The position numbers were made by a program, and so were the translations under genes. The notes beneath the pieces were generated by a model. That model saw nothing but the letters and a program-made list of their open reading frames with translations, was not told the DNA's origin and ran no database searches. Shown here in pieces: positions 10,299 through 56,948 of a stretch of DNA of 60,000 nucleotides (the first letter of the stretch is position 1; each line of letters starts with the position of its first letter). Source of the DNA: Bolinopsis microptera (Eukaryota; Ctenophora; Tentaculata; Lobata; Bolinopsidae). Where the stretch lies: NCBI RefSeq assembly GCF_026151205.1, contig NC_087084.1, positions 11,623,453-11,683,452 of the forward strand. Reading direction: 5' to 3'.

Positions 10299-13200
10299 AT
10301 GGTTTTAAAGGGCACGATGCTAGCGTGCATCATACTGCTATGCCTTCAAGGGGTTCTTTTCGCAGGTCAGGAGAAGGATTTGTACATATTTACACTAAGA
10401 TTTTTATGTGCACTATATCCTATTTTATTTTCATGTCAAATCAAATAGCCAGATATCAGCTGCATCGATCAATTCGAAATATTTAGGGATTGTTCCTAGA
10501 ATAGAAATCTATTTTCAGTCCCAAACATCTGTTAATACTTCAAGGGTTTTATTGCAAATCGTAATTAAATTTTCGGCATTGATTGCCACTATCTCTAACA
10601 CCTGCTGACAAGTTTTTCTTTACAGATTGCCCAGCTGGAAGCTTCATGTCAGCTGACGGCTGTGAGGAATGCGGAGTTGACCATTACAGTGCTGCAGGAG
10701 CTACATCCTGCACCCCCTGTCCTGGCGGACAGTTATCACAAAAGGGATCTGATTCTGTGAACGATTGTTATGATGGTGAGTGCATTGACATTTTACTGAC
10801 CAAATTTGTTATACTCAATTTGACCAAAACCCATAATCATGGGTAGAGTGAACCGCTGCCAGTGTCTCTCTTTTCCAAACAAAAGGAAATGATATTAATT
10901 TGAGGAACCGTCCGCAAATGCAAATTGATACCGAGAATGAAATCGGTCGCTCGCTTTTCCCATTCAATAAGCTTTATTACAATTCCTAAGCTGGCGCGTA
11001 TTTTGCGCAAATTTCTTAAAAACCTCCACATAACTATTTCTTATTCCTGTCATCTTTAACATTGAATTAGAATGTTTTGAACTTAAATATACCTGCTGAA
11101 CTACTTTCGATGAGTTTTAACTTTTTAATGCCTGGAAAACAATAAAGGGGATATAATAGTATAGGGGGTAAATAGTATTGTGAATATAAAGGCAACGGTA
11201 ATGCTTGCCAGCATTGTGATTTCGTGATATGTTACAAGTTTCATGACAAACAAGGCATTATGCTTTATTTCTAGGTTTATGTTTGGGAGCATTTTGAGAC
11301 AGCACCATTTATTAGCATCTAATCTGAAACTACCTTATCGGACCTTATTTAAAGGAACTTACTTGAACGCTGGAGGCCCTAGCGTTCACGTTAATGTCCG
11401 TTCAAATAAAGTCCGTTCAATTAATGTCCGTCCAAGTTAAAGTCCGTTGAATTTTTTTTCAAAACTTTTTCCATTTCGAACTTTTTGTCCAGAATATGAC
11501 AACTTTTTAATTTCAGTCAATTTCAATTGCTATCATTAGACTAAACTATATCGTTGAATCAATAAAAACAAGGTATTATAAAATTTTAACAATCTGAATT
11601 GTAAATATCACATTGTCATTATTGCATGATCACTATCTTGAAGTTGATCTTCGGCTTCTTCTACCTCATTTTGTCTTACAACTGGTTGTCTGTCCAACTC
11701 GTAGTCGTACCGGGCAATGAACGATCCCAACTGCTCTATTAGAGAGATACTTGAATGCCTAAAGTACAGCTTAGCTTTATCTCTTATAGCTCCCCACTTG
11801 GTATAGGCGACCTTCGGTGGCTTATGTCAGCTACGATACCTTCTACCATACCACCCATCTCGATAAAGGTGAAGACAAACCGGGATATCTCCCTGCACGA
11901 AAACCCATTTGATGAAGATGATATGTGATATTAGATAATGATCATGTACACATATTTTAACATTTTTACTTATTATAAACTGCTTTTCTTGCTTAGTGTA
12001 TGAAAAATGGATTTGAAAATCATTTGCTAAAAATATTTAAAAAAAGTAAAAAAAAGGTTGAAACAAATTCGGATTTTTGATGGTTTTGATTGCCTTCTAG
12101 CGTTCATATTAATGTCCGTTCATAATTATGTCCGTTCAAGTAATGTCCGTCCAAATAAGGTCCGATAAGGTAGTTAAATTATTCAAGCTATTTCAATTAT
12201 TTATTTTATTTCAGAGGCTGATGCTGCTGGCGAGGAAATTATTTATTTATTAGATAAAGTCACTGTAAAAGAGTACTTTACTAAAAAGGGTGAGCTTGTG
12301 ATAATTCTATTTATAGAAACGGTTTAAATGAGCAATTATTAAGCCAGATGAACGATTCGCAAAGAGGTGATACTTTCGATAACGTATGATTTTTGGTTTC
12401 TAACTTATATTTGATTTCTGAATAACACGAACGAACTAAAACCTAGTTTGAATCTGGAGAGTCGTTGTAAACCATAAACATATTACAAATTTCAGGTGTG
12501 ATTGAAGAGGGTAAGTTTTTATTTATATATTTATTTATGTAAATTTATTTAATTATGCAAATGACGGTAAATTTGTATGTAAATCCTTGGTATCAACACA
12601 TTGATATTCATATTCATGTCATAATTAACTACTACCAGCAATTTGCGATTAGACACATTTCTGCACAACAAATATAATGGATACATTTTAATGTATCATC
12701 TTGGTGAAAATGTTTAACAATAATTTCTAACATAATTATTTTACAGAGGGTCCAACCACAACCATTAACAAAGGTTTGAAATATTTTCCATTTGTTTCTT
12801 TTTTTCTTTTATCTTATTGTTTATTTTTCTGCTGCCCACAATGTCACGTCCAATAAAGAGTGAAATATTATAATACCGTTTGATCGTGTTTTTGTTGTTG
12901 ATTCGTTCATACAAATTATTTGGATTTTGTTTATTTCGACGTAATAGTGTTAGAGACCCTACAAAGTCTCGAAAATATACCAAATTTTGAAGTTAGTCAC
13001 TACGTATAATAATGATCAGCGATCCCATTCAAAAGTGAATAATTTTCAAAAACAACAATTTCAGGGTACGTATGTCCGGAGGGACAAACAAAGTGTGGCG
13101 ATATTGACGAATGTGTTCCCAACAGTGGTCTATGTAATGGAGGTCCTGCGTGTTCAAATGGTTTTGATGAATCAGCGGAGTTTTGCACAAGTATGCAGAA

Positions 13201-16200
13201 TTATTCCTCAATATAGTTTTAATTATGTGTTGAGTGGTTAGGATTTATTCATTCGATAGACAAAGTAGGAAATTTGTTTCGAAGATGGAAAGCAGTTGGG
13301 TGATTTGGATTAATATTCTGTTGCAAAAAAAACTGAACAAAATTTACCTCCATAGCTCTAAGTCTAACAATATACAATACAATAATACTATAAAATAGTA
13401 CTACAAAAGTACTATACAGGTTTTGAATGCCCTGCTGAACAGCAGAAGTGTGCGGATGGAATCCAGTGTTTTCCTTCATCTGGAAAATGTGATAAATTTA
13501 GATATCCTCACTGTAACGACAAGTCCGACGACGTGGGCTGCGCTTGTAGAGATGGCGAAATGATGTGTGCTGACGGAAATGGATGTGCTTCCTATCTAAA
13601 AAAGTGTGACGGTCACGCACAATGTGCTGACGGGTCCGATGAGAGTGACGACATTTGCTATGGTTAGCACTTATCAGAATAGATATTTGAAATAATATTC
13701 AACATAACATTTACCTTAGTGAAAAAAGTACTTTTCCAAAATGAACATAATTATATGGAGAATATTTTTAATTTGCAACATTTAAGCTCCGCATTCAAAC
13801 GGCAGATTTCCTAGGTTCAAGTTAGTTCAGCACTGCTTTAATTCAATATAACATATTTATTATGTTCAAACTAGTTTCTGGTGAATGCTCGATCGGCACG
13901 AAAAAGTGCGTCAGTGGTGACCAGTGTGTCGCTAAAGGGTCAACATGTGACGGAAGTATCAATTGTTTAGACGGATCGGATGAAGATCCGGATTTCTGTA
14001 TAAGTTAGTGAAGTTATTATTGAACTTAATTAGCTTATTTGCTTAAATTAGTTACAATTTAACTCAATAACTCAATAAACTAATTAAATTTTATCAGTTA
14101 TTACTCAGCTTAATTAGCTTGTTCGCTTATATTTGTTACAATTTAACTCAAAAAGTCAATAAGCTTATTAACTTTTATCAGTTATTATTTAGTTTAATTA
14201 GCTTATTTTCTTATAATAGTTACAATTTAAATGAATAACTCAATAAGCTAATTAACTTTTATCAGTTATTGTTTAGCTTAATTAACTAATAAGCTTAAAT
14301 TAGTTATTATTTAAGTTTGATAAATAAGTAAAATGTCAGTAAATTTTAGTTTATCAAAGTTTTGTCCACTTAACATTTAATAAGTCAACAAATCACTGTA
14401 TCATGTATATTGTATAACTATAATTAATGTACTGTATATAATTTTACTATATCTAATTTTTGAAACCAGCCTACGAGTGTCCGGGGTACCAAAAGAAGTG
14501 TGATGGTAATAAATGTCTGCCCGTATGGGATCTGTGTGACTCAAAGCCAAACTGTAAGGATGGATCGGACGAAGATCCTGCATTCTGTGCTGGTAAGCAA
14601 ATTATTTTAACAATATTAAGCTATATTACTATAATAGTGGAACAGCAATACTAAGGTAATGGGAGTATTGCTGTTCCACTACTACAGAAATAATCCCGAT
14701 AACACTCGACCTCTGCCTGATCCAGAGGATATCACCATTTTACCTTCACACAGACATCGAACGCTGTACGAAGATGACGATCAGACCTCATTATATTACT
14801 ATAAGTTGAGAATTATGAATTATAAACAAATAATAAATAATAAATAATCACTTTACCAGCCTACGAGTGTCCGGCAGCCAAAAAGAAGTGTGCGGACGGT
14901 ATGCAATGCCTTCCTAAGAAATTCTTCTGTAATGGTAAAACACAGTGCACTGACGGGTCAGATGAGTCCGAGGAAGAATGCGCAGGTTCGTAGAATCATT
15001 ATTGAAATTTGAAATATTTGAAGTATGGAAATATTGAGATTTTATTAACGAATTGCAACAATGAGAAAAAACGAGTAAGTCAGTTTTTCTGATAATAATG
15101 TATTTTTAATTCAGAGGAAAAAGGAGGAGGAGAAACAGTCATTGAGCACGGAAAAGGAAAAGGAAAACAAACGATTGGTAAGTAGCACACCCAGTATTTG
15201 ATTTTTATCGACCACTAATCATTATGAGCTTGCTTGTAGATGCATTAGTAAATTCTAACGTTGTTTTAACAACATTGCCCTTCATTCTCTTTGACGGATT
15301 TAGGAACTTAATATTAAATTAAAGAAAAGTTAAGAGAATATCATTTTTTAGAAAAGGGTGAAAGAGTTAAAGGAGTGACGGATCAAGAAAGCCGAAGGGG
15401 GCCACCAGAGCCAGTAGACCCAGAGCCAGTTGTCCCAATAGATCCAGAGCCAGTAGACCCAGAGCCAGTGGTCCCAGTAGACCCAGAGCCAGTAGTCCCA
15501 ATAGACCCAGAGCCAGTAGTCCCAGTAGACCCAGAGCCAGTAGTCCCAGTAGACCCAGAGCCAGTAGACCCAGAGCCAGTAGTCCCAGTAGACCCAGAGC
15601 CAGTTGTCCCAGTAGTCCCAATAGACCCAGTCCCAGTAGACCCAGAGCCAGTAGTCCCAGTAGACCCAGAGCCAGTAGTGCCAGTAGACCCGGAGCCAGT
15701 AGTCCCAGTAGACCCAGAGCCAGTTGTCCCAGTAGTCCCAGTAGACCCAGAGCCAGTTGTCCCAGTAGTCCCAGTAGACCCAGAGCCAGTAGTCCCAGTA
15801 GACCCAGAGCCAGTAGTCCCAGTAGACCCAGATCCAGTTGTCACAGTAGACCCAGAGCCAGTTGTCCCAGTTGTCCCAGTAGTCCCAGTAGACCCAGTCC
15901 CAGTAGTCCCAGATGGTAAGAAGACCTGCGACTGCTGGACTCCAGAATGTGGTTTCTGTTCAAACCCAGAATGCTCTGTCAAGCTGATTGGTGGGCTCGC
16001 CGGCTCTAAAGGTATTGGAGTACGCTCCTTCCTCCACAAAAGAAAAGTCAAGACCATCGTCATGTATAAAAATGATGGAGATTCAATCGGACAGTTCCAG
16101 TGGAGTTTGAACAGGATCTCAATGTCCGGCTGTGTCAGCTGTCACACACCTCAACGCATAAGGTACAAGGTAAAGGGGCTTCCTGTCGGAACTGTTGGCT

Positions 16201-16418
16201 GGAGATTTGCCATCAACGATGGAGTTGTTGAGCTTAGTGTTGAGGGTGAGATCTTGTTCACCTCGAAGCTGACAAGACAATGTGCGGAGGTATACGGAGA
16301 CGTGAAAAGCTTCTCTTTTACCGGAATGAGCTGCAAGGGCTCGTTTGCCTACGCTTCTGAGGAAATGAAACTTGCAACTATCTGTGGTGGAGCTGATAAA
16401 TGCCCCACCAACGCATAA
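10299..16418 (+). CDS. Paralog A: secreted GCC2/GCC3, six LDLa, proline repeat, Cys-rich protein
   Basis: Exons: 10299-10365, 10626-10775, 12215-12289, 12496-12510, 12747-12773, 13065-13190, 13420-13662, 13875-14003, 14470-14592, 14860-14985, 15115-15177, 15352-16418 (TAA). All introns are phase 1; the product is 736 aa. Exon 1 is a signal peptide ([18 protein letters not shown]). Exon 2 is a GCC2/GCC3 module ([29 protein letters not shown]). Exons 3-5 are a linker including a 15-nt microexon. Exons 6-10 hold six LDLa modules; the last four keep the calcium-cage DGSDE, the first two have NGFDES and DKSDD. Exon 11 is Gly/Lys-rich. Exon 12 holds the acidic proline repeat and a roughly 165-residue C-terminal domain with about 11 Cys ([33 protein letters not shown]). 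Secretion and an extracellular binding or structural role are inferred. Confidence 0.88.
10820..11222. mobile_element. Insertion in intron 2 of A, one arm of the CCATAATCATGGG MITE
   Basis: From TGACCAAAACCCATAATCAT onward it matches one arm of the 508-bp MITE at 30921-31428. The rest is unrelated or rearranged. Intron 2 of paralog B runs straight from TACTCAATT to TCGTGATAT and so is an empty site bracketing this block. Confidence 0.7.
11331..12172. mobile_element. MITE, TACCTTATCGGA family, 842 bp, TA target duplication
   Basis: Ends TACCTTATCGGACCTTATTT and AAATAAGGTCCGATAAGGTA are perfect inverted repeats of 20 bp. Paralog B's intron 2 has one TA at this point (GAAAT-TA-TTTAAATT), whereas A has TA at both ends, so the target duplication is TA, as for Tc1/mariner-type elements. 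The interior has several ATGTCCGTTCAA-type subterminal repeats and no ORF. Confidence 0.85.
14010..14290. repeat. Intronic tandem repeat, about 95-bp unit, three copies
   Basis: The unit runs from TTAATTAGCTTATTTGCTTA to TTTTATCAGTTATTA. Paralog B has one unit in the equivalent intron (33590-33690) and C has essentially none, so it expanded after duplication. Confidence 0.75.
14634..14791. mobile_element. Short retroposon-like insert in intron 9 of A with 12-bp target duplication
   Basis: Flanked by direct repeats TATATTACTATA (14622-14633 and 14792-14803). The equivalent introns of B and C lack the insert. Its sequence is an inverted copy of parts of the larger element at 18766-20042 (GTTCCACTACTA end and AATGAGGTCTGA end), with a hairpin built on GGAACAGCAATACT. 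Confidence 0.8.
15411..15914 (+). repeat. Coding 24-bp repeat of paralog A
   Basis: The unit CCAGAGCCAGTAGTCCCAGT plus AGAC encodes PEPVVPVD, with PEPVDPEPV and PVVPVVPVD variants; roughly twenty units. An acidic residue recurs every four or so positions. The complementary strand is also open in two frames (LLGLLAL and TTGSGSTG runs), as expected for such composition. Confidence 0.92.
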
Positions 16419-17345: not shown

Positions 17346-17371
17346 ATGGGTTGATTAGTTGACTGACTATT

Positions 17372-25762: not shown

Positions 25763-28700
25763 ATGGTTTTAAAGGGCACGATGCTAGCGTGCATCATACT
25801 GCTATGCCTTCAAGGGGTTCTTTTCGCAGGTCAGGAGAAGTATTTGTATATATTTAAAATACAAATTTTAAACTGCTCTATAACCTATTTTATCTTCATG
25901 TCACAATCATTTAGCCAGATAAAAGCTGTATAGACGAATTCAAAATATTTAGGGATTGTTCTTAGAAATTTATTTTCAGTCCCAAATATTTTTTAATAGT
26001 TTGGAGTTTAGGGGTTTTATAATTTTCGTAATCGTAATTGAATTTCCGACATTGATTGCCACTATCAGCTCTAACACCTGCTAACAAGTTTTTCTTAACA
26101 GATTGCCCAGCTGGAAGCTTCATGTCAGCTGACGGCTGTGAGGAATGCGGAGTTGACCATTACAGTGCTGCAGGAGCTACATCCTGCACCCCCTGTCCTG
26201 GCGGCCAGTTATCACAAAAGGGATCTGATTCTGTGAACGATTGTTATGATGGTGAGTGCATTGAGATTTTACTGACCAAAATTTGTACTCAATTTCGTGA
26301 TATTTTACAAGTTTCATGAAAAGCATGGCATTATGCTTTATTTCTAATCTGAAATTATTTAAATTATTTATGCTATTTCAATAATTTATTTTATTTCAGA
26401 GAAAGATGCTACTGGCGAGGAAGTGGTTTATCAATTAGATAAAGTCACTGTAAAAGAGTACTTTACTAAAAAGGGTGAGCTTCTGATAATTCTATTTATA
26501 AAAACGGTTTAAATGAGCAATTATTAAGCCAGATGTACGATTCGCAAATAGATGATACTTTCGATAACGTATGATTTTTGGTTTCTAACTTTTATTTGAT
26601 TTCTGAATAACACGAACGTACTAAAACATAGTTTGATTTTGAATCTGGAGAGTCGTTGTAAACATATTACAAATTTCAGGTGCGATTGTAGAGGGTAAGT
26701 TTTTATTTATTTATTTATGTAAATTTATTTAATTATGTAAATGACGGTAAATTTGTATGTAAATTCTTGGAATCAAAACATTGATATTAATATTTATGTC
26801 ATAATTTACTATCAGCAATCTGCGATTAGATACATTTCTGCTCAAAATATAAAATGGATTCATCTTAATGTATCATGTTGGTGAAAATTTTTAACAAGAA
26901 TTTCTAACATAATTATTTTACAGAGGGTCCAACCGAAATCATTAACAAAGGTTTGAAATATTTTCCTATTGTTTCTTTTTTCTTCTTTTATTTTGTTGTT
27001 TATTTTTCTGCTGCCCACAATGTCACGTCTAATAGAGAATCACAGTGCTGACAAGCACGACCGTTGCATTTATTGTGGGTATACTATGTTCCCCATTTAC
27101 TATTATACCCCCTTTACTATTATACCCCCTTTACTATTATACCCCTTTTACTATTATACCCCCTTTGGTACACGTTACAAGCCTCTTTTGTGCACGCGAA
27201 GCGTGCACTCCGGCCGGAGGCGGCGGCCGAAGGCCGCCGCCTCCGGCAGGAGTTTTCCAGGGATTAAGACTCATCGGAAGTCGTTCAGCAGATTTATTTT
27301 TAGTTCAAAACATTCTAATTTGATGTCAAAGATGACAGGAATAAAAAATAGTTATGTTCAGATTTTTAAGAAATTTGCATAAAATACTCGCCAGCACTGT
27401 TATACGAAATTCGGTAAAAAACCCAAAATCGCCATATTCAGGTGCCCTAACAACCATGTTAAAATTGAGTTAGAGATCTGAAATTTTTCAGGGCGTCTAG
27501 ACGTTGACCAAATTGACTGCAAAAAAAGTTTCAGGTTTCAGGAGCATCGGGAAATGGGTTTTCTAGAACCCCTGTTTTACGACAGATTGTCGGGACATAT
27601 ACATACAGATATACATACAGATATACATATATGGACACGTTCATTTGAGTTTGAGGATATTGGTAAACAAAAATAATAGCGTTTTTGACGATAGTGGCTT
27701 AATTTTGACATCTATTAACCTAGCACGTTCAGAAGTTCTGAACATTAGCCGCGTAACCCATACTCCCATATGCACTGCTCAGAAAGAAAATCTATTGTTG
27801 TTAGGCACTATAATGGTTCAAATGTCACATTTTGTGTGACTTAGTTAACTGCAGTTGTCTAATTATCATTCCTTGGTCTGAAACATAGTAGATTAGGTCA
27901 ATCTAACAATTATGATACAACATTGGTTAAAGGGCACGGATCGAACGGTTACAAGGCAATATTAAGGTAACTTTGTCACACTCAAAATACCATACCTCTA
28001 TTCTACTGTGAGGTGTCCTCAAAACCCTTTTTACTCATTATTTGATGGTTGATCTACCAAGTACGGAGTACCAATCATAGCCCTAAAATATGTTGCTTTG
28101 AATAGTAAGCTAATACAGGCACTTGGTTATTGGGAAATGAGGTTAATTCTGTCACAATATATGGAATTTAAAATTTTGGGCGAATTATTTATATCTGATT
28201 TTGGTTTGAAAGGCGGGAAAACTTTACATGATGACAATGTAGTTGATGCGAGTTAAGATCAGTTGATGTTTACATTGTCACAAAAAATTATACGAAATCG
28301 TAAATAGGTTAAAAACAATGATTATATAATGAAATAGTCTCTTATAATAAGTAATAACTCTTATAATAACTGATGTGACAAAGTAAACATGTCTTGCCCC
28401 TATTTTGAAGATCTATATATTCTATAACTCTATTAGAATTTAACATTCTTTCAGAAAAAATTGGTAGAATATTGTCCAGAACATCAGAGCTCAAGTTTAA
28501 CAATTTTAGGTTAAATTTGTCAAAGTCACTAAAAATGTGACAAAATTAACTTTTCCTGCCCCAACAATTTCAAGAAAGTGTGTAAAAATTAGCATAGGCT
28601 GCCTTATTAACTAAATAAATCAATCCAAACTACAAAAAAATATATGTTAATGTGATGATGATTACCTAACTGTGATAATAACTGATGTGACAAAGTAAAC

Positions 28701-31700
28701 ATGTCTTGCCCCTATTTTGAAGATCTATAACTCTATTAGAATTCAACATTCTTTCAGAAACGATTGGTAGAATATTGTCCAGAACATCAGAGCTCAAGTT
28801 TAACAATTTTAGATTAATTTGTCAAAGACACTGAACAATGAACATGTGACAAAATTAACTTTTCCTGCCCCAAAAATTTCAAGATAGTGTGTTAAAATTG
28901 GCATAGGAATTAGGATGCTTTATTGCCTATATTAATTGATCCATACTACGAAAAAGATCGGTTAATCTGATAACGATTACCTAACTCTTATAATAACTGA
29001 TGTGACAAAGTAAACATGTCTTGCCCCTATTTTGAAGAACTATACCTCTATTAGAATACTATGTAATTTTATCATCAAAAAAATGTCGATAAACTAGTTA
29101 TTTTGCCAGCAAGGAGCTGACAGAGTTATAATAATTTTTTTGTGACGAAATTACCCTATTTTTGACCATGTTGTGGTAGTTTAATTGTGACACTGTTAAC
29201 ATATTACCACTGTTAACATATTACCACCATTTATGTGACTGGTGCATGGTACTAGCAGTGTTGTTTGATCCATAGTACGTAATACAAAGGGTTTAAGCTG
29301 GTATATCATTATTTGTTCAATTTCACACATGTTCAGATATCATCAAGATTATGTGACAAAGTAAACTTGTCTGTGCCTTCTGTGTTTTAATTCCTTGCGA
29401 CTATATGATATAATAACAATTCCTAGCACTTCCAGGCCATTAACTAAACCTACACTAGTCAGCATTGCTTATCAGGGTTCCCTAAACATTGTTCACATAT
29501 TTTCTTAAATGTGTGACAGAGTAAACCTGAGTGCACCATCTAACGAAAAAAGTCGTCAAATATGTAGGTAATGGTCATATGTACACATCCAATCAACTGG
29601 ACACTCAAAATTTTGGTCAAAAACGGCAGCAAGGGGTCCATATTTACTCTGTCACATGTTTATAGTGTGACAATGTAACCATTTCCGTGCCGGCCGTATT
29701 TAAGCGATATCTTATCACCTGATTAAGATATCGTTATGTGACAAAGTTAGCCTAGAGGATGAGACGATTATCCTAACCATCAAGGGTTTGTGTAATTTCA
29801 TAGTGTGACAAAGTCAACTACACTGTGCCTTTTAATAGGGTCACTTATATTTACCAATATCCTCAAACTCAAATGAACGTGTCCATATATTCAGGGATAG
29901 ACGCTTTGCCAGTCAATTGTAGCCTGTATTTAAGTGTCCATAGATTCAAAAGTATAAAAGATACAGCCATTTCCGACCACAGGTCTTGCAAATAATTGTT
30001 TACACTTTAGTTTACATTGTATAAAAAATTTATTTGACGTCATAAACACCCCTTGATGACGTCATCAAGTTAACCGTTTTAAAAACTTGATTTTTGACAA
30101 AGTAATAACTTTTAAAATTAATTTTAACCCATTAAGGAGTAATTTTATTCAAAATCTGAGGAAATTTTTACCTTAGATAATTGTTCAAGCATTCTGAAAA
30201 TCTACCGGAAAGTTTTTCTAGCTTGCTCCTTCATAAAGATATTTGTCATTGAAGTTTGTGCTTTTTTGAAGAATTATTTTATAAAAACGTCAATTTTGCG
30301 ATTTAGTATTCTTTGGTGTTGGGCCATGCCTTGGGTTGTGGAGCTCAGTTCTGCTTCCTATAGGTATACATTGTGCATTAGGCTAGTTTTAAAGTTGAAA
30401 ATCGAAAAGTTGCACACGTGGGGACACGCCCAAATTGATAGAAAATTGCTAAAATCACTGAAAATTGCTGTTTTCGTCATTTTCTGTCAACTTTAGAGTG
30501 CCGTTGTGATTACAGTTCTTCTTGAAATACTTTGAAACTTTGCATGCTTATCAAGCTATATATAATACAATTACATGCAAAAATTTACGGCGATTCAATA
30601 TTGGATGCGCATGCAACGTCCGCTCAAAGTTTGCACGTGCGAAAGGTGAGAATTTTGCTCATTCGTGATTTCCAACAAATTCTGCTTTGCCACGACAGTT
30701 TAATGTCATTATATATGAATTTAATGTCAACTTGAATGAGTATTAAGTGGTATATTCAGTCAGTGATGGACCGATATGCTTACCTAAACACAAGGAAATG
30801 TTTTTAAAGGAAAAATTTCGAAATCGTTGAAACTTCCTCCTTATTATAAATATAATGAAGATATCAGTTTATATTTCGACTTTATAAAGTACCCTGACAT
30901 TATAATCAAAAAGAGATGATATTTTACCAAAACCCATAATCATGGGTAGAGTGGACCGCTGCCAGTGTCTCTCTTTCCCAAACAAAAGGAAATGATATTA
31001 ATTTGATTGACCGTTCTCAAATGCAAAATGATACCGAGAATGAAATCGGTCGCTCGCTTTTCCCATTCATTTACAATTGTAATAGATTAAGAAGAACTAC
31101 CCAAAGGCAGCTGTACTCGGCAATAAAGATTCAATAAACTTCAGCTAATGCAATAAGTGATAACTACCACCCTTACCCCGAAATACTAGGTATCGACCCG
31201 AACGCAACCCAAAGAGATTTTTACAGCATCTGATTGACATGTAATCAATCGAAAATTATTACAATTCGTAAGCCGTGAATGAATGGGAAAAGCGAGCGAC
31301 CGATTTCATTCTCGGTATCATTTTGCATTTGAGAACGGTCAATCAAATTAATATCATTTCCTTTTGTTTGGGAAAGAGAGACACTGGCAGCGGTCCACTC
31401 TACCCATGATTATGGGTTTTGGTAAAATGAAATATTACAATATCGTTTGATCTTATTCGGCGAATATATTATATAATCACAATCTATGAAAAAAGTCATT
31501 GCAGTTCATACAGATTATTTGGATTTTGTTTATCTCAACGTATAAGTATTAGAGACCCTACAAAGTCTCGAAAATAAACTAGATTTTAAAGTTAGTCACT
31601 ACGTATAATAATGATCATATCAGCGATCCGATTCAAAAGTGAGTAATTTTAAAACAACCACAATTTCAGGGTTCGTATGTCCGGAGGGACAAACAAAGTG

Positions 31701-34700: not shown

Positions 34701-35959
34701 TGACGGATCAAGAAAGCCGAAGGGGGCCACCAGAGCCAGTAGACCCAGAGCCAGTAGTTCCAGTAGACCCAGAGCCAGTAGTCCCAGAAGACCCAGAGCC
34801 AGTAGTCCCAGTAGACCCAGAGCCAGTAGTTCCAGTAGATCCAGAGCCAGTAGTCCCAGTAGATCCAGAGCCAGTAGTTCCAGTAGACCCAGAGCCAGTA
34901 GTTCCAATAGACCCAGAGCCAGTTGTCCCAGTAGACCCAGAGCCAGTAGTCCCAGTAGATCTAGAGCCAGTAGTCCCAGTAGACCCAGAGCCAGTAGTCC
35001 CAGAAGACCCAGACCCAGTAGTCCCAGTAGACCCAGAGCCAGTAGTTCCAGTAGATCCAGAGCCAGTAGTTCCAGTAGATCCAGAGCCAGTAGTTCCAGT
35101 AGATCCGGAGCCAGTAGTTCCAGTAGACCCAGAGCCAGTAGTCCCAGTAGACCCGGAGCCAGTAGTTCCAGTAGATCCAGAGCCAGTAGTTCCAGTAGAT
35201 CCAGAGCCAGTAGTTCCAGTAGATCCAGAGCCAGTAGTCCCAGTAGAACCAGAGCCAGTAGTTCCAGTAGATCCAGAGCCAGTAGTCCCAGTAGTCCCAG
35301 TAGACCCAGAGCCAGTAGTCCCAGTAGATCCAGAGCCAGTAGTCCCAGTAGACCCAGTCCCAGTAGTCCCAGTAGACCCGGAGCCAGTTGTCCCAGTAGA
35401 CCCAGAGCCAGTTGTCCCAGTAGTCCCAGTAGACCCAGTCCCAGTAGTCCCAGATGGTAAGAAGACCTGCGACTGCTGGACTCCAGAATGTGGTTTCTGT
35501 TCAAACCCAGAATGCTCTGTCAAGCTGATTGGCGGGCTTGCCGGCTCTAAAGGTATTGGAGTACGCTCCTTCCTCCACAATAGAAAAGTCAAGACCATCG
35601 TCATGTATAATGATGATGGAGATTCAATCGGACAGTTCGAGTGGAGTTTGAAAAGGATCTCCATGTCCGGCTGTTTCCGCTGTCAGACACCTGAAGGAAT
35701 AAGGGACAAGGTTAAGGGACTTCCTGTCGGAACTGTTGGCTGGAGCTTTGCCATCAACGATGGAATTGTTGAGCTTAGTGTTGAGGGTGAGATCTTGTAC
35801 ACCTCGAAGCTGACAAGAAAATGCGCGGAGGTATACAGAGACGTGAAGAGCTTCTCCTTCACCGGAATGAGCTGCAAGAGCTCGTTTGCCTACGCTTCTA
35901 AGGAAATGAAACTTGCAACTATCTGTGGTGGAGCTGATAAATGCCCCGCCAACGCATAA
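25763..35959 (+). CDS. Paralog B: secreted GCC2/GCC3, six LDLa, proline repeat, Cys-rich protein
   Basis: Exons: 25763-25829, 26102-26251, 26400-26474, 26680-26694, 26924-26950, 31670-31795, 32971-33213, 33441-33569, 33861-33983, 34082-34207, 34341-34403, 34677-35959 (TAA). All introns are phase 1; 808 aa. Organisation is identical to paralog A. Exon 1 is identical base for base to A and C, and exon 2 differs from A at one base. The length difference from A comes only from the proline repeat. Intron 5 is 4.7 kb because of inserted elements (about 290 bp in A). The C-terminal domain keeps every Cys of A and gains one ([10 protein letters not shown] replaces [10 protein letters not shown] without loss). 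Role as for A. Confidence 0.88.
27093..27170. repeat. Short tandem repeat, CCCTTTACTATTATACC units
   Basis: About five units of 17-18 bp inside intron 5 of B, immediately before the GC-rich hairpins. Confidence 0.85.
27191..27247. repeat. Paired GC-rich hairpins with GAA triloops
   Basis: Hairpin 1 (27191-27207) is TGCACGC-GAA-GCGTGCA. Hairpin 2 (27213-27247) has a perfect 16-bp stem closed by GAA: GGAGGCGGCGGCC, then GAA, then GGCCGCCGCCTCC, with flanking GCC/GGC. Both present C-GAA-G at the tip. They are strikingly GC-rich against the AT-rich surroundings. Confidence 0.9.
27612..29893. mobile_element. TTTGTCACA-rich non-coding transposon in intron 5 of B
   Basis: Ends TATATGGACACGTTCATTTG and CAAATGAACGTGTCCATATA are inverted repeats that continue inward for about 40 bp (GAGTTTGAGGATATTGGTAA). 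The interior has no ORF of note, but TGTGACAAAGT or TTTGTCACA recurs roughly every 100-150 bp. It also holds 2.3 tandem copies (28349 to about 29060) of an approximately 310-bp unit starting with AACTGATGTGACAAAGTAAA. Other copies: 16917-17345 (inverted fragment) and 57510-58480 (divergent, direct). Confidence 0.82.
29894..30920. other. Unassigned intronic insert sequence
   Basis: Together with 27041-27611 this is extra sequence relative to intron 5 of A. It carries a TGATGACGTCATCA palindrome (about 30055) and no exon-like frame. It may be the right half of an older element split by the 27612-29893 transposon. Confidence 0.4.
30921..31428. mobile_element. MITE with 150-bp terminal inverted repeats
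   Basis: Arms 30921-31070 and 31279-31428 are nearly perfect inverted repeats beginning ATTTTACCAAAACCCATAAT. The core is about 208 bp with no ORF. Its right end abuts sequence homologous to intron 5 of A (TGAAATATTA). A one-arm relative lies at 10820. Confidence 0.9.
31834..32495. mobile_element. MITE in intron 6 of B, about 662 bp
   Basis: Ends GTAATAAGCGCCATGAGCTG and CTTGGCGCTTATTAC are inverted. The matching arms extend about 75 bp with substitutions (TTGGTACCAAAAGTTG / CAACTTTTGGTACCAA). An inner inverted pair is CACCGTGTAGCA / TGCTACACGGTG. Absent from A and C. Confidence 0.78.
32651..32892. mobile_element. Small TACCTTACTCGGG-family MITE in intron 6 of B, TA target duplication
   Basis: Starts TACCTTACTCGGGAATATTA and ends CCCGATTAAGGTA. 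The left part is present twice (32651 and about 32769). Paralog A reads GCTC-TA-AGTCTAACAA at this point, so the insertion duplicated TA. Confidence 0.8.
34731..35450 (+). repeat. Coding 24-bp repeat of paralog B
   Basis: Same PEPVVPVD unit as A but about thirty units, with GTTCCAGTAGAT and GTCCCAGTAGAC subtypes clustering in blocks. This suggests expansion by block duplication. Confidence 0.92.
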
Positions 35960-46461: not shown

Positions 46462-49400
46462 ATGGTTTTAAAGGGCACGATGCTAGCGTGCATCATACTG
46501 CTATGCCTTCAAGGGGTTCTTTTCGCAGGTCAGTAGAAAGATTTGTTGGTTAATGTAACTTGTGTTAGTAATAAGGTAATAGGAGATTCAAGAAATCTAT
46601 TTATACTGAGATTTTTAGAACTGCTCTATTTCCATTCAGCCAGATAACAGCTGAATGAATTTATTTTAGAAATTCAGGAATTGTTCTTAGGAATTTATTT
46701 TCAGCTCGCCAAACATTTGTTAATAGTTTTTAGTTCAGGGTTTTTATAATTTTTGCAAATCGTAATTGAATTTCCGATATTGATTACCACTATATCTAAC
46801 ACCTGCTGACAAGTTTTTCTTTACAGATTGCCCAGCTGGAAGCTTCATGTCAGCTGACGGCTGTCAGCAATGTGGACTGGACCAGTACAGTGCTGCAGGA
46901 GCTACATCGTGCACCCCTTGTCCTGAAGGACAGTTATCAGTGAAGGGAGCCACTTCTATAAAAGAGTGTTATGGTGGTGAGTAATATACATAATGATATA
47001 CATAAGATTTACTCAGTTTAGAGTTGTTACAATTTTCACAAACATAACATTATGCTTTATTCCTAGGTCTATGTCAAGTGGGCATCTTTAGACAACACCA
47101 TTTAAGAAACTAAAATTATTTCAATTATTTACTTTATTTTAATTATTAATGTTATTTCAGAGGATGATGAAACGTCTCACCGTGTTATAGTGTACAAAGA
47201 AGAGCTCGGTACTACCATAGAGATAGTGACCAAAAAGGGTGAGCTTGCCAAAATTATCTTTAGCTTTAAAAGAGTAATTATTAAACCAAATTGCAAATAG
47301 GTGATATTTTTGATAATGTTTTATATTTTTGGCTTCTTACTTTTATTTTGTTTTTGAATAACGTGTTACGTGCTAAAACTTAGTTTGAATCTGCAGAGTT
47401 ATTGTAAAAATATTACATATTTCAGGTTTTGTGACAGATAAGGGTAAGTTTTTATGTAAATGACGGTAAATTATTATGTAAATTATTGGTATCAACACAT
47501 TACATTGATATCTATATTTATGTACTTAGACTTACCTACTGCCAGCAATCTGCGATAAGGCACATTTCTGCTCAACAATTAGTAAAACGGATACATCCCT
47601 ATCATGTATCATCTTGATTCTTGGTGAACATTTTGAACAAGAATTTATAATATCATCATTTTTCAGAGGATCCAACCGATTTTAAACCAATCACCATTCA
47701 TAAAGGTTTGAAATATTTTCTTTTTTTTCTTCTATTTTATCATATTTTTCTGCTTCCTACAACTTTACGTTTAGGAACCGACCGGTCTGGGATTTTGGCT
47801 GCCGGACCGGATTTTCCAGATATCAATCTATTTTATGGATAGCCAGATTTTACAGAACCGGATTTTAGGAAGGGGAAATATAATGCCGTAAGAAAATTTA
47901 AAATAATCCTTTTGTTGGGCTTTTATCAATTATAATACTAAAAGCCATGCGGAATTTCACTGTTCTCCTCGGATTCTGAAAGAGTTCGATCTGATTTTAT
48001 TAAACTAAATTAGTTGAACTATTATACCGAAGGATCAAAACATATGTGAAATATCATATACTGAACACAGGAAGAACCTATCTTAAAAGTTCTTCCTGTG
48101 AAAATCTTCTAAAGTTAAATTGGGAAAAACGTGGTCTATCTCGTGCAAACTTTCCTAATGACCAGGGTCCCATACGGAATTACACAATAAGACATTGTTT
48201 ACGGTCCGACCGTTTTCTTGATTTAATAATCGACAAATTTTTAAATAATATTCAATTTTCAATGCAAGTAGAAAGTTTCTTATGGTAAATTTCACAGTGT
48301 AGATTGAATTACAATATTTATAGTTTAACTTTAACTTACATTGCGTGCAGTCGATTAGTTGCACAAAACAATGATGCAGGATTATTAAGTTGCAGGATTA
48401 TTAAGTTATTACTCCGCCGTAGATTGTAGAAGTTTTAAGAAGCTATAAAATCACATACGAACTTTTAATTCCATAATCGGATGTTCGAATAATCGAATAT
48501 GTGATAATCTATAATATCTTAGCGCTCCCTCATCAGAATGCAAATATCTTGCAACATTTAAAAAATTAATTGCCGGCTCTTCTTTTGCCTTCTTTATCTT
48601 TATCTAGTACCATACCAAAGTACCAATGGGCAAATATTCGGTCAATCACGGTCTACAAAAAGTCATTGCAGTTCATACAAATGATTTAAATTTTGTTTAT
48701 TTAAAATGATTGGTGTTAGAGACCCTAAAAAACTATTTATAGTTTTTTATAAAACAAAGTCATCCTCGACATTATTCACTACGTATACGATATGCAGCGA
48801 TCCGATCAAAAAGTGAACAATGCAATTTTCAAACAACCCCAATTTTAGGGTTCGTGTGCCCAGAGGGAGAAACAAAGTGTGGCGATGTTGACGAATGTGT
48901 TCCCAACAGTGGTCTGTGTAATGGCGCTGCTGCGTGCTCAAACGGCTTTGATGAATCGCCGGAACTTTGTGCAAGTATGCAGAGATATTCCTAAATACTT
49001 AAATACTGTTTTAGTGTTTTATGAGGTGGTATTATAAAGTTATAAGTGTTATATGTAAATAAGATTTATTCATTAGATAGAAATTAGAAATATCGGGTAG
49101 GAGAGTTAGAATTAACCCAAATATCAGGGACACGAATGACTACTCCAGGATTTAAGAAACTAAACTTTCAACACTGAAAACATTCAGATTCTTGCCACAA
49201 TTAGTAAGATACATCCTAGTCAGTATCTCCTGATTCTGTGAACCTTAACAAGAATTTTAAAATATTTTCAGAGATCCAAACCGTTTAACCAATCACATCA
49301 TAGGTTTGAAAATTTCTTTTTCTCTAAATTTAATAATTGATTCTACCTTACGTTTAGAACGACGGTCTGATTTGGCTGCGAGATTTCAGTAATCACATTA

Positions 49401-52400
49401 TGGATGACAGATTTTAGCAAACGGTTAGAGGGAATTAATGCCGTAAGAAATGTAAAATAATCTTTGTTGCTTTTATCAATTATAATACTAAAGCCATGCG
49501 AATTCTACTGTTCTACCGAATACTGAAAGGTTTCGATCAAGTTTATTAAAATTAGTTAGACTTTATACCGAAGGTCAATACAATGTGAAATATCTATACT
49601 ATCACTAGAAGAACTATCTAAAAGTTCTCTACCTAGTAAATCTTCATAAAGTTAATTGGAAAAACGTGGTAATCCGTGCAACTTTCTATGACGCCATACG
49701 GAATAACAATAAATACATGTTTACAGTCCGACCCGTTTTCTGATTAATACGACAAATTTTTAAAGTATATCAATTTCATGCAATAAGTTTCTTATGAATT
49801 TCACAGTGAAAATGAATAAATATTAAGTTTAACTTAACTACATGCGGCAGTCGATAGTGCCAACAATATGAGCGGATTATGTAATTGCAGATTATAAGTT
49901 ATTACTCGCGCGGAATGATTGCTAGTTTTAGAAGCATAAAATATGACGATTTAAGTTCCAAATCGATGTTCGAATAATCGAAAGTGATAACTATAATTTA
50001 GCTCTATTCAGAATGCTAAATATTTGCAAAATTTGAAAAAATTATTGCCGGCACTTTTTGCACTTCTTTACTTATCTAGTACATAATACCAATGCATATT
50101 GGTCATCCGGTTTAGTTAGCAACAATTTGATAAATTTGGTATTTAATAAATGGATGTTTAGACCTAAATAGTTTAAGTTTTTTTAACAGCACTCGACATT
50201 ATTCACTACGTATACGTATCCGATCGATCAAAAATGAACATATTCAATTTTCAAAACCCAATTTAGGGTTCGTATGCCGAGGAGAAACAAAGTTGGCGAT
50301 GTGACAATGTGTTCAACAGTGGTATGTTAATGCGCACTGCGTGCTCAACGGCTTTGATAACGCCGACTTGTGCAAGTATGCAGAATTTCTGAATCTTAAA
50401 TACAGTTTTCAGTGTTTTTAGGTGTAATTATAATAGTTTATAAGTGTTTATGTATATAAATTTATTCATTAGATAGAAATTAGAAATATCGGGTAATTAT
50501 TTTTGACGATGGAAAATAGTTGAACACTTCACCAGGTTATCAGTGCCCGGCTGAATACGAAAAGTGTGCGGACGGACTGCAATGTTTTCAATCAGCTGGA
50601 AAATGTGATAAATATAAAGTTTCTCACTGTAACGATAAGTCCGACGATATGGGCTGCGATTGTAAATTGAACGAAATGATGTGTGCTGACGGAAATGGAT
50701 GTGCTCTCGTTTTGAAAAAGTGTGACGGTCAAGCACAATGTGCTGACGGGTCCGATGAGAGTGACGACATTTGCTATGGTTAGCACTAAATTATTTGACA
50801 TAATATTTGACATAATATTCAACATGATATTCACACATTTCCATAGTCATCCTAATCATATGGTAGTTTTGTTAGACAATTTGAAACATTTGAGATTTGC
50901 AATGAAACGGCAGATTTCCTAGGTTTAGATTTGTTCGGCACTGCTATTATTCATTATTCGATAAAACATATTTAACATATTTATTATGTTCAAACTAGAT
51001 TTGGGTGTATGCTCGAAAGGCACGAAATTGTGTACCAGTGGTAACCAGTGTATTTCTATTGCAACAATGTGTGACGGAACTGTAAACTGCGACGATGGAT
51101 CGGATGAAGATTCTGACTTCTGTACAGGTTTGTGGAGGTATTATTTAACTTAATTAACTGTTTTGTTCATATTGGCTATCATTTAACTTTGATTAATCAA
51201 AGAAATCAAAGTACATTTTAGTTTGTCAAATTCGTGTCCACTTTACATTTAATTAGTCAATAGATTACTGTATTTAATTTTCATAACTGCAGAATACGAG
51301 TGTCCGCCTTATCAAAGAAAGTGTGATGGTAATAAATGTCTGCCCCAATGGAATCTGTGTGACTCAGAGCCAGACTGCGAGGACGAGTCAGACGAAGATC
51401 CTGCCTTCTGCGCTGGTAAGCAGATTATTTTAACAATATTAAGCTATATAAATTTAGAATTATGAATTATAAATCAATAATAAATAATAAATAATAAATA
51501 ATGAATAATCACTTTACCAGCCTACGAGTGTCCGGCAGCCAAAAAGAAGTGTGCGGACGGTATACAATGCGTTCCTAAGAAACTCTTCTGTAATGGTAAA
51601 GCAGAGTGCACCGACGGGTCAGATGAGTCCGAGGAAGAATGCGCAGGTTCGTAGAATAATTATTGAAATTTGAAATAATATTTGAAGTATGGAAATATTG
51701 AGATTTGATTTACGAATTGCAACAATGAAACAAAAACGAGTTTATGTCGGTTTCTCTGATTTTAATGTATTTTTCAATGCAGAGAAAAAAGGAGGAGGTA
51801 AAAATGTGATTGAGAAAGGGAAAGGAACAAGGATCCCAAAGAGAGGTCAGTATAGCACATTAATTATAGTTAAAGTTCTTAATAGTATATTAAGTTCAAG
51901 TCAGGGTACATTAAAACCATTCAAAACTTTTAACATTACATATAAAGAGGCCTTTTTAATCCGGTTTTTAATTTTTATGAACCGCTTATCACTATGAACT
52001 TGCTTGCGTTTGCATAACTATAAGCAAACTCCATGCAAAGTTGTTTAACAGTAATGATCTCGATTTGTTGTGACGGATTTGGAACCTTTAATTAATATTC
52101 AATTAAAAAACAAGTTCACATAAAATCATTTCTCAGAAAAAGAAGAGAGAGTTATAAAATTGACGAAGGAGGAAAAGCGTAGAAAGTTAGAACAACAAGA
52201 GAAGGAAGATAAAGTCCCAGAGCCAGAGCCAGTAGTCCCAGTAGAGCCAGAGCCAGTAGTACCAGTAGACCCAGAGCCAGTAGTCCCCGTAGAGCCAGAG
52301 CCAGTAGTCATAGTAGACCCAGTCCCAACTGCCACTTCATGTAAGAATATGACGTGTTATAATTTTCTAAATATTTTTACACAAAATCATTTGTAATTGA

Positions 52401-55400
52401 TTCTGGAATTAATGTATACTGTATATAGCGTTTCAAGAAGATTTCTTAGATGATTAATTAAATAATTAATCGGATGGTATTCAAGCCTTAAGTTACTTTT
52501 TGAATTATTCCCACAGGATTAATTTCACAGAATTTAAAAATCTTTGTTGGAATAAAAGTTACTGAATAACACTATTCCAGATTTCACGGAGTATGCCACT
52601 ACATCATCGTGGATAACACTTGGAGGTCCTGGAAAATGTGAGTGCCCCAGCCCCCAATCCCCATTATTTTAATTCTTCCTTTTTCATGGCTTGGCTCAGT
52701 TGGTTAATCTGCCTGCTTGTTAAATACAAGGTACCAGGTTCAATTCCCAATTTTCAGCTTCCCACTTAATTGGCTGGTTACACTTGTGTAACAATGTGGC
52801 GGTTGGATTGTCCGAAATAAAATGAGAGTTAGATAAAATGCAAGTGATGCACGTACCTTTAGTGACGTATATTGAAAAAAATTAATCAATTAATATCCTA
52901 TTATATTCCATATTGATCGAATGATCATTTCCATTTCTAATCCTATGCAACCCTATGCATATCAGTATCACTTATAGTTATGCAAGCTGACACGGATCTG
53001 TGCATAATACTATAACGAAATGAAGTGCAAAATATTTACATATTTACATATCCGCCACTATAGACTTTATACAGTAAAACCCCGATTTACCGCAAATCTC
53101 AATTTAACCCCAATAGTCTGCGGTAAATAGGGTTTTACTTACTTCCGTTTCCTATTGAGTGAATCCGTGCGTGGTGATATGGTTCAATTTGACAATTCTT
53201 GACATTTAGCTCACCACTGATTTTAATAACATTCTCATTCTGAGATTGTACGCAAAATAATTTTTGGATTGTAATCATTTGGTCATTGTAACTGATACTA
53301 ACGTCAAGACAACTAAGCCAGGATGAAAAACAAACGGTGACAAACAAAGCTTCAGGCTTTGTACACAATATCAAAGAAAGTGACACTTAAGGTATACTTA
53401 GAAACGATCAAATTTATTGACTTAATTGATTTTTGGCTAGCTTGAGTCATGCGAATCGGCAATAACACATTTTAGCTTAATCGCATATATTTAGATTAAA
53501 AAGCTGGATTGCTGACCAAGAATGCGGCTTACCTGCACAAACCAGTATTGCATCAACACGCAAAGGAGTACTTCGACGGCTCAAGTATTGAGGTACGTAT
53601 AGCACACAAGAAAAAGTCAGATTCACCATCTTCCTGATTTAAACGTGTGGAGATCACCTCTGGACAGTTCCAGTGAGATTGTGCAAAATCATACCTCTCG
53701 GCTTATCCACTTCACACACAACGATAACGGCAAATAGATAGCTTGCAATGACTATGACTGAACTATAGCATCAACGATGGGTTGTTGACTTAGTGTTGAG
53801 GTGAGATCTTGTACAACTCAAATGCAAAATGCGCAAGCATATCGAGACGTGAAGACTTTTTTTCAACGGAATACTGCAAGAGCAATATAGTGTATATGTA
53901 AGAACTCTCAAAATGTGTTGTGGAGTGATAAATGTGGGACGATGTACGAACTTGAATCAAGTAATTTGTTTCAAGAAAATGGGACAGAACTGTTGAGGAA
54001 AATGTCGTGATAATGTGCGCATACAAGCTTCAAATTGGAAATACTAGAAATGCTTTGAATTACAGGATGTTATTAGCTGGTAGAACATTGATAATTCCTA
54101 AATGTTTTGGAGACATTGTTAAATTAAATTTTATAATATTCACCAGTGTCAACTGTCATCTTTAATTGAAGCGATAATAAATAATGTAGTAACATTGTGG
54201 ATCTGATAAAAATGACTTGTAGGTAGAATAATAAAATTCTCCGAACAACGCTGGTAATATTCAGTTAAAATCGTCTGAACGAAACTCTATTTTAAGGGAC
54301 TTATGACGTTGTGTTGGGATTGTGTATAGTGACGATAATGACATAATTGACGACCTCAGCTCTCAAATACTTGACTAGCAAAACTTCTGTTCACCCATGC
54401 AGTCAGTTCACGTGGATCTTATAATCAACACTTAAAACGGATGTTCTATACATTATACATCTACAGTTTTAATGACTCTAAAAATATCTAATAGAAAGAA
54501 AGTATTAGAATCACCTCACATCGATTGATTTGCAGGATGTAATTACGTATCAAACGCGCTCGCGGCGGAATATTCTAGACTCATAAGTACAAGACCCATA
54601 GGCGGAAAACACATTAATATCGCATGCACTAGGTAGCAGTACAAAGCAAATTCAGCGCGGCACACAGCATTCACTGTGTCATAAATGTGAAACGCGAGAT
54701 TCTAATTTTGACGTATTGTATCTTTAATATCTGAAATACTAACTTATCGAGAGCTATAAATAGCTTGGACATTATAAACATAAATAAGTTCGACATGTCT
54801 AGTTTTGCTTTGGTGAGATTTATAACTAACGTTTGATCAAATTCTGCTTTCCAGGCCAAATATGGCTCCAAATAATGGCAAATAATGGCAAATATGGCAA
54901 GTAAAGATGTATACTGACTAAGAACTAAGCAGAATACTTGATAAAATTCTAAGTCAACGATTACAAGTTGCATTGATTAAATCATTCTGAAATAACAGAC
55001 AATCAAGAATCAAGACGGACGATAATATTGTTGATGTAAATTAGGGTGTGCAGTGTATAATGTGGACTGATAAATAGACAATCATGGCGCCACAGCTCTA
55101 TACTATTCAAATTTAACAACCAGGAAATTCTTTCACCTTATCGCAGATACAGATTATACGATAAGGACTGTGATGTATAATCAACACTTAAACGGATGTT
55201 CTATACATTATACATCTACAGTTTTAATGACTCTAAAAATATCTAATAGAAATAAAGTATTAGAATCACCTCACATCGATTGATTTGCAGGATGTAATTA
55301 CGTATCAAATGCGCTCGCGGCGGAATATTCTAGACTCATAAGTACAAGACCCATAGGCGGAAAACACATTAATATCGCATGCACTAGGTAGCAGTACAAA

Positions 55401-56948
55401 GCAAATTCAGCGCGGCACACAGCATTCACTGTGTCATAAATGTGAAACGCGAGATTCTAATTTTGACGTATTGTATCTTTAATATCTGAAATACTAACTT
55501 ATCGAGAGCTATATATAGCTTGGACATTATAAACATAAATAAGTTAGACATGTCTAGTTTTGCTTTGGTGAGATTTATAACTAACGTTTGATCAAATTCT
55601 GCTTTCCCGGCCAAATTTGGCTCCAAAGAAAGTGTGATAAAACATTAATCACATGCCTTCTCATGCGATATCAACATTTTCAAAACTCGGCAAGCCTCGT
55701 GATTGAAAATGTCGATATAACCCTCGGCAAGCCTCGGGAAATATCGAAACTTTCGCTAACTCGGCAAGCCTCGTGGGCGAAAGTTTTGATATCGCATGAG
55801 AAGGCATGTGATAAATGTATAATATTCCATATTGATCGAATGATCATTTCCATTTCTAATCCTATGCAACCCTATGCATATCAGTATCACTTATGCAAGC
55901 TGACACGGATCTGAGCATAATACTATAACGAAATGAAGTGCAAAATATTTACATATTTACATATCCGCCACTATAGACTTTATACAGTAAAACCCCGATT
56001 TTCCGCAAATCTCAATTTAACCCCAAACTCCGCGGTAAATTGGGGTTTTACTGTACTTCCGTCTTCCATAATTGAGTGGAATCCGTGCGTGGTGATTGGT
56101 GAAATTTGACAATTTGCTTGACCAGTTTAGCTCCACGCACCGATTTAATAATTCAGTCTCAATTCAGAATATCACGCGAAAAATAATTTTGCGAATATTT
56201 AATCATTGAGTCATTGAAACTATACTAAACGGTCAGAGACAACAGCTACAGCCAGGATGAAAAACAAACGCGTGAGCATGAACACAAGCTAGGCTATTGT
56301 ACACAAACTCAAAGAAAGTGAAACACCTCAAGTTAGCTAACCCATATTTTTGACTTTTTGTTTTTTGTGCCTACGGCATTTGAGTCATGGATATCGGCAA
56401 AAACATCGTTTGTAGCCAATAGAAATACTATTTCAGATGGTAAGAAGTCCTGTGATTGCTGGACCAAGGAATGCGGCTTCTGCACAAACCCAGATTGCAT
56501 CAACACGTTCAAAGGAGGACTCGACGGCTCCACAGGTATTGGAGTACGCTCATTAGTCCACAAGAGAAAAGTCAAGACCATCTTCCTGTATAAAAGTGAT
56601 GGAGCTACCTGCGGACAGTTCCAGTGGAGTCTGAACAGGATCTCCCTCTCCGGCTGTATCAGCTGTCACACACCTCAACGCATAAGGGACAAGATTAAGG
56701 AGCTAGGCAATGGAGCTATTGACTGGAACTTTGCCATCAACGATGGGGTTGTTGAGCTTAGTGTTGAGGGTGAGATCTTGTACACCTCGAAGCTGACAAG
56801 ACAATGCGCGAAGGCATACGGAGACGTGAAGAGCTTTTCTTTCACCGGAATGAACTGCAAGAGCATGTTCGTGTGGGTGATTGATGGTATGGACCTCTCA
56901 TCTGTGTGTGGTGGAGCTGATAAATGTGGAGCGGATGTAGCACGTTGA
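46462..56948 (+). CDS. Paralog C: divergent member with split C-terminal exon
   Basis: Exons: 46462-46528, 46827-46976, 47161-47238, 47426-47443, 47667-47705, 48849-48974, 50536-50778, 50999-51127, 51293-51415, 51521-51646, 51783-51845, 52137-52340, 52581-52637, 56437-56948 (TGA). All introns are phase 1; about 644 aa. Signal peptide identical to A and B; GCC2/GCC3 module diverged (CQQCGLDQYSAAG). The linker is longer and the microexon is 18 nt. Six LDLa modules are present. The proline repeat has only about five PEPVVPVE/D units and ends on its own exon. A small extra exon (YFTEYATTSSWITLGGPGK) is supported only by open frame, splice sites and phase. The C-terminal domain sits on exon 14. 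Degraded duplicates of exons 5-6 and 14 lie in introns 6 and 13. Confidence 0.8.
49190..50497 (+). pseudogene. Deletion-riddled copy of 47570-49100 (exons 5-6 of C)
   Basis: Aligns throughout to the preceding 1.5 kb but is about 15% shorter. Differences are overwhelmingly one-base deletions, in exon and intron alike (GTTCGTATGCCGAGGAGAAA for GTTCGTGTGCCCAGAGGGAG). Exon 6's copy, about 50267-50376, has no usable frame. Confidence 0.85.
52221..52330 (+). repeat. Coding proline repeat of paralog C, about five units
   Basis: The same 24-bp unit with alternating GTAGAGCC and GTAGACCC ([16 protein letters not shown]). It is the shortest array of the three. Confidence 0.88.
52683..52860 (+). mobile_element. 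tRNA-derived SINE in intron 13 of C
   Basis: A-box TGGCTCAGTTGG and B-box GGTTCAATTCC are spaced as in a tRNA, but no convincing anticodon arm or acceptor stem forms. An unrelated body (GTAACAATGTGGCGGTTGGA) follows. Confidence 0.65.
53110..54420 (+). pseudogene. Deletion-riddled copy of 56010-57441 (exon 14 of C and flank)
   Basis: 52890-53100 matches 55820-56020 almost exactly. From about 53110 the copy continues but loses single bases every 5-10 positions, including through exon 14 (about 53510-53930) and its 3' UTR, up to 54420. Confidence 0.85.
54421..54872. repeat. 452-bp direct repeat, copy 1
   Basis: About 98% identical to 55177-55627, from ATAATCAACACTTAAAACGG to TCTGCTTTCC-GGCCAAAT. 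No coding potential seen. The spacer 54873-55176 is unique. Confidence 0.92.
55177..55627. repeat. 451-bp direct repeat, copy 2
   Basis: Partner of 54421-54872. Unlike the neighbouring degraded block, these two copies differ by only a handful of substitutions. Confidence 0.92.
55637..55813. mobile_element. Foldback MITE with three nested hairpins
   Basis: Terminal arms ATCACATGCCTTCTCATGCG and CGCATGAGAAGGCATGTGAT are exact inverted repeats. Inside are three successive hairpins (arms CATTTTCAA/TTGAAAATG, TCGATAT/ATATCGA, AAACTTTCGC/GCGAAAGTTT). Each presents the same core CTCGGCAAGCCTCG. Confidence 0.88.

Follow-up and report, generated by a model that had tools for sequence, protein, structure and literature searches.

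Three tandem genes of Bolinopsis microptera with predicted secreted products that combine LDLa-type modules, an acidic proline stalk and an unmatched cysteine-rich C-terminal domain

The described proteins closest to the products of the three tandem genes reported here, which lie in a stretch of 60,000 nucleotides (nt) of the Bolinopsis microptera genome (NC_087084.1, positions 11,623,453 to 11,683,452; hereafter the window), include P-vulgata_3, an adhesive candidate from limpets that carries five LDLa repeats (PMC7333891), and the MAM/LDL-receptor proteins of the coral skeleton (PMC4043741). These proteins resemble the products of our genes, termed g1, g2 and g3, in being extracellular with several LDLa modules; instead of the limpet and coral companions, however, g1-g3 combine the modules with a GCC2/GCC3-like module, a stalk of PEPVVPVD repeats and an unmatched C-terminal domain. 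Receptors of the LDLR/LRP type (LRP2, VLDLR and LDLR) have an LDLa array in common with g1-g3 and were the top hits when the g2 array was compared with PDB sequences. Unlike them, g1-g3 lack a transmembrane span and produced no EGF or beta-propeller match in Pfam, a negative that, like those for the other modules named below, holds for the protein parts scanned; moreover, 16 of their 18 modules lack part of the acidic calcium cage, as judged at the ligand positions of LDLR repeat 5. Annelid haemoglobin linker chains are likewise secreted and place LDLa before a C-terminal domain, but the likeness is limited to LDLa: linker L1 gave a weak match there (expectation value, E, 3e-4), whereas a search of PDB sequences at E 10 with the C-terminal domain of g1-g3 returned nothing. 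SCUBE/SVEP1-type proteins share the GCC2/GCC3-like cysteine module; here, however, the module scores just below its cut-off and Pfam listed no EGF, CUB or CCP.

From their predicted products, we tentatively read g1-g3 as tandem paralogs whose multidomain protein is secreted and belongs to extracellular matrix, mucus or an adhesive secretion, a reading that we hold at somewhat less than an even chance; that the products are extracellular structural or binding proteins of some sort is probable. Comparison between regions together with exon enumeration delineated three neighbouring complete genes, all on the plus strand. The first, g1 (10299..16418), has 12 exons (10299-10365, 10626-10775, 12215-12289, 12496-12510, 12747-12773, 13065-13190, 13420-13662, 13875-14003, 14470-14592, 14860-14985, 15115-15177 and 15352-16418) and encodes 736 amino acids (aa). 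Its neighbour g2 (25763..35959) also has 12 exons (25763-25829, 26102-26251, 26400-26474, 26680-26694, 26924-26950, 31670-31795, 32971-33213, 33441-33569, 33861-33983, 34082-34207, 34341-34403 and 34677-35959) and encodes 808 aa, and g3 (46462..56948) encodes 625 aa in 13 exons (46462-46528, 46827-46976, 47161-47238, 47426-47443, 47667-47705, 48849-48974, 50536-50778, 50999-51127, 51293-51415, 51521-51646, 51783-51845, 52137-52340 and 56437-56948). From stop to next ATG the genes are separated by 9.3 and 10.5 kilobases (kb). A preliminary description of this DNA had assigned three paralogs to 10299..56948, limits that coincide with the g1 ATG and the end of the g3 stop codon; its product sizes of 736 and 808 aa were reproduced, but its third product of about 644 aa was not.

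The joined exons of each gene contain a terminal stop and none internally, and all 34 introns have GT-AG borders and lie in phase 1. The earlier proposal that every internal intron is of phase 1 is thus upheld, as a confirmation and not a blind discovery, because candidates for exons 2 and 6-10 (18 of the 37 exons) were enumerated as phase 1-1 only. Where the small exons differ in length between copies (75/78, 15/18 and 27/39 nt), they do so by whole codons, and a poly(A) signal, AATAAA or ATTAAA, begins 137-191 nt past each of the three stops. Aligning blocks of g1 and g2 are mostly 85-94% identical, and those of g3 with either mostly 69-86%. A conserved acceptor-like CAG ends 9 nt upstream of each ATG (10287-10298, 25751-25762 and 46450-46461), so a 5′ leader exon or a trans-splice site is possible.

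Outside the stalk, the pooled ratio of replacement (dN) to synonymous (dS) changes per site was 0.49 for g1-g2, 0.46 for g1-g3 and 0.48 for g2-g3, indicating purifying selection; per site, synonymous changes outnumbered replacement changes in each pair (Fisher p 3e-4, 2e-9 and 1e-8, respectively). At local composition, a 165-codon open frame would arise by chance with a probability of about 7e-6 per given start, or about 0.06 such frames over the two strands of the window. Single exons were more variable: dN/dS was about 1 or more for exons 4, 5 and 10 (5 to 42 codons) in some pairs, on few changes. Between g1 and g3, exon 3 (identity 0.55) was more diverged than the introns on both sides (0.65 and 0.82), and exon 8, which encodes LDLa4 (0.72), was more diverged than its upstream side (flanking introns 0.88 and 0.72); dN was 0.73 for exon 3 and 0.30-0.31 for exon 8 against g3. 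Divergence above the level of adjoining introns in some linkers and in LDLa4 fits loose constraint on those parts. The same excess prompted us to consider strong positive selection, which the pooled ratios of 0.46-0.49 disfavour.

Each protein presents the same order of parts: a leader, the GCC2/GCC3-like module, three small linker exons, six LDLa-type modules, a charged linker, the stalk and the C-terminal domain. The leader, recognised by hydrophobicity, is encoded by a 67-nt exon (10299..10365 in g1) that is identical in all three genes, with putative cleavage after residue 22. A hydrophobicity scan of g1, g2 and g3 found no later span comparable to it, the highest 19-residue Kyte-Doolittle mean past residue 40 being 1.32, 1.02 and 1.07, respectively; together with the uniform phase-1 introns, this supports the secreted, modular build first proposed. 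The GCC2/GCC3-like module (10626..10775 in g1) is borderline: the g1 open frame matched PF07699 (Ephrin_rec_like) just under the Pfam cut-off, at 22.9 versus 23.1 bits, with weaker sub-threshold matches to other cysteine-rich families, and GCC2/GCC3 was not listed at E 0.001 when the joined N-terminal parts were scanned. One of the three small linker exons is a micro-exon of 15 or 18 nt.

In a matrix, mucus or adhesive protein of this build, the LDLa set would serve as a protein-binding or cross-linking stem and the C-terminal domain as a binding or multimerising head. Between them, the stalk would form an extended acidic rod that determines reach and charge, with repeat number as the means of tuning. 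The mature products have 53 (g1), 53 (g2) and 54 (g3) cysteines, and the odd count in g1 and g2 would permit intermolecular disulphides, a weak hint. Several points weigh against such a role. LDLa modules often belong to receptors or soluble binding proteins and not to matrix components; neither an RGD motif nor an N-glycosylation sequon occurs in the g1, g2 or g3 products; and calcium-dependent rigidity is doubtful because just 2 of 18 modules have a complete acidic cage. Furthermore, P-vulgata_3 is tabulated as 'cell membrane', not secreted (PMC7333891), and the limpet and coral precedents carry vWFD or MAM (PMC7333891, PMC4043741), whereas the scanned parts of g1-g3 contained no C8, vWFD, TIL or MAM. 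The adhesive or matrix role put forward at the outset is plausible by analogy only, with the limpet and coral LDLa proteins as the analogues.

Novelty, as judged from the predicted proteins, would reside in the unmatched C-terminal domain and in the combination of parts; among the papers listed by a literature search we recognised none on this architecture, which is not proof of its absence from print. A three-sequence alignment with many invariant positions delimited the domain at 15915..16415 in g1 and 35456..35956 in g2 (both 167 aa with 11 cysteines) and at 56439..56945 in g3 (169 aa, 12 cysteines). No Pfam or NCBIfam family exceeded its cut-off over the domain, the best being TMEM100 (E 0.11) and an NCBIfam acylphosphatase (E 0.022; 14.9 of 113 bits), and neither the profile nor g3 alone found a PDB sequence at E 10. 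AlphaFold2 on the three sequences returned mostly beta strands at low confidence, with a mean predicted local distance difference test score of 47.8 for the whole domain and 57.4 for a cropped core. With these weak models Foldseek returned nothing at E 0.001 or better (in PDB, the lowest E was 0.06 for the whole model and 0.19 for the cropped one; viral library, searched with the cropped model only, best 0.08), and we accordingly claim no fold. An identity resembling farnesoic acid methyltransferase, guessed from the strand pattern, was dropped for want of a Pfam match. Beyond animals, pattern searches for the domain gave 1 and 26 stretches in viral contigs and 130 in prokaryote genomes, none of them confirmed, and none in phages, as is unsurprising for an animal protein. 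We regard it as possible, if doubtful, that this is an undescribed cysteine-rich extracellular domain, perhaps confined to one animal lineage. On this view an expandable 24-nt repeat would determine the length of the acidic polyproline rod that bears it, and internal tandem duplication would be the way in which the family acquires and sheds exons.

The same domain is the centre of an alternative in which g1-g3 encode soluble innate-immune recognition proteins. The C-terminal head would then bind glycans or microbial surfaces, with the stalk lifting it and the LDLa stem recruiting partners, and the tandem copies would diversify specificity. A tandem family whose linkers and LDLa4 evolve faster (the exon 3 and exon 8 values above) suits this proposal, as does a sub-threshold match of g3 to PAW (PF04721), a mannose-binding module, at E 0.13-0.18. 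That match, however, was confined to one of the three members and reached 12.1 bits where the cut-off is 31.4, and PAW was dropped as an identity for the domain; Foldseek did list the carbohydrate-binding module CBM66 when given the cropped model, but this model was weak and E was 0.96. Moreover, dN/dS over the C-terminal domain was 0.42-0.51, indicating purifying and not diversifying selection. We consider an immune function unlikely.

The LDLa array, to judge by its sequence, is secure as a set, yet divergent. In g1 the six modules (PF00057) occupy 13065..14985 on five exons, two of them on exon 7. Per whole protein, the set scored 89.2, 103.1 and 103.5 bits against a PF00057 cut-off of 24.1, and six cysteines in LDLa order were present in all 18 modules, with spacings of 6-5-6-5-10, 6-4-6-5-10 or 6-5-6-7-8; the count of six modules per protein stands in this respect, although only four stretches of the six pass Pfam alone at E 0.001 in each protein, and LDLa1 of g3 scored alone reached 22.5 bits, under the cut-off. 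The preliminary description had also held that four of six modules keep the calcium-cage DGSDE. Literal DGSDE occurs four times in g1, four in g2 and three in g3, in agreement for the first two genes but not for the third, and all four acidic cage residues are present in only two of the 18 modules (LDLa5 of g2 and g3), three in 12 and two in four; at the second ligand position, 14 of 18 modules have N, Q, H or A. In addition, modules 4-6 have K, R or I at the position of the LDLR repeat 5 core Phe. An LDLa fold can exist without a complete calcium cage. Because the set is divergent and its acidic cages incomplete, the calcium dependence suggested earlier is weak, and we hold the term loosely.

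An LDLR/LRP-like array might alternatively point to a soluble carrier of lipids, lipoproteins or a cofactor, or to a decoy receptor. The LRP2, VLDLR and LDLR matches of the g2 LDLa region favour this, but such PDB matches are generic to LDLa, the acidic cage is incomplete in all but two modules, and the parts scanned contained no EGF, beta-propeller or transmembrane part; we consider a carrier or decoy rather improbable.

The stalk is encoded by a 24-nt tandem repeat specifying (PEPVVPVD)n octapeptides and differs six-fold in length among the neighbouring copies: 169 aa in g1 (15405..15911), 241 aa in g2 (34730..35452) and 39 aa in g3 (52223..52339). Thus the long acidic proline repeat ascribed to the family is long in g1 and g2 and short in g3. 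In g1 and g2 it consists nearly exclusively of P, V, D and E, and its net charge is -39 in g1, -59 in g2 and -8 in g3. A match of the g2 stalk to Pfam Cornifin (24.7 bits, cut-off 34.8) was sub-threshold and was read as low complexity. These charges, together with the LDLa proteins known from coral skeleton (PMC4043741), would accord with an organic-matrix protein of a mineralised structure whose acidic stalk binds calcium carbonate. In contrast to the composition of Asp-rich mineral binders, however, the stalk is dominated by Pro and Val with isolated D or E, and g3 is almost without one; a mineral-binding function has, in our estimate, a low probability.

Turning from the protein to the family, the genes differ in how their last coding segment is divided: one exon carries the stalk and the C-terminal domain in g1 and g2, whereas g3 uses two exons separated by a 4.1-kb intron at the matching phase-1 point. 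Two internal duplications were found in g3, one pairing 47575-49099 with 49197-50495 (75% identity) and the other 52899-54425 with 55818-57445 (77% identity, 1.7 kb). Each has left one decayed exon. From the first comes a copy of the LDLa1 exon at 50267..50374 (plus strand), in which a stop and small gaps interrupt the LDLa frame; its alignment score was 46.5 against a maximum of 18 in 200 shuffles, and a different, non-LDLa frame is open across its 108 nt. From the second comes a decayed copy of the C-terminal exon in the last intron (53497..53955, plus strand), with at least six stops in every forward frame. It shares 75% identity with the g3 exon and 66% with those of g1/g2, which is most simply explained if this duplication took place within the g3 line. 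With the uniform phase-1 introns, the two decayed duplicates support the exon gain and loss proposed beforehand. At exon 10, g2 and g3 are 93-100% alike over the exon and its flanks in 60-base steps, against 63-88% in the surroundings, and the exon's synonymous changes number 1, 1 and 0 in the three pairs. By sequence, this exon looks locally homogenised among the copies, with gene conversion as the simplest cause.

That one or more copies, g3 above all, are non-functional or wrongly joined is suggested by these decayed exons and the 4.1-kb last intron, by a weak exon 5 donor (GTTTGA) in all three genes and by the elevated ratios of exons 4, 5 and 10, but is very improbable given three open frames with splice sites conserved throughout, pooled dN/dS well under 1 in every pair including those with g3, and a poly(A) signal within 200 nt past every stop.

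Rfam and transfer RNA scans were empty. Elsewhere in the window, open frames on the minus strand at 44775-46212, without a Pfam match at E 0.1, resemble the RNase H part and the end of a non-LTR retrotransposon, and a 115-aa minus-strand frame at 38460-38807, again unmatched at E 0.1, is taken by us to resemble a DNA-transposon-related protein. Repeats comprise a minisatellite between g1 and g2 (22947-24304) in which 42 copies of a 32-nt unit agree at 99% and three minus-strand frames are open, a 7-nt satellite (17362-17751; ACTGACT, 56 copies), a pure (TC)108 run (41426-41641) and, on the plus strand at 2546-3316, an open repeat frame of 256 aa with a 153-nt unit and HSYTTSY-type runs.

If our reading of g1-g3 as secreted multidomain paralogs is correct, these genes would extend the repertoire of animal secreted proteins by an unmatched extracellular domain and an uncommon set of modules. 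The means would be familiar, namely ordinary exon duplication and tandem gene duplication, and the turnover of exons in this family is directly visible in the two decayed copies that remain in g3.

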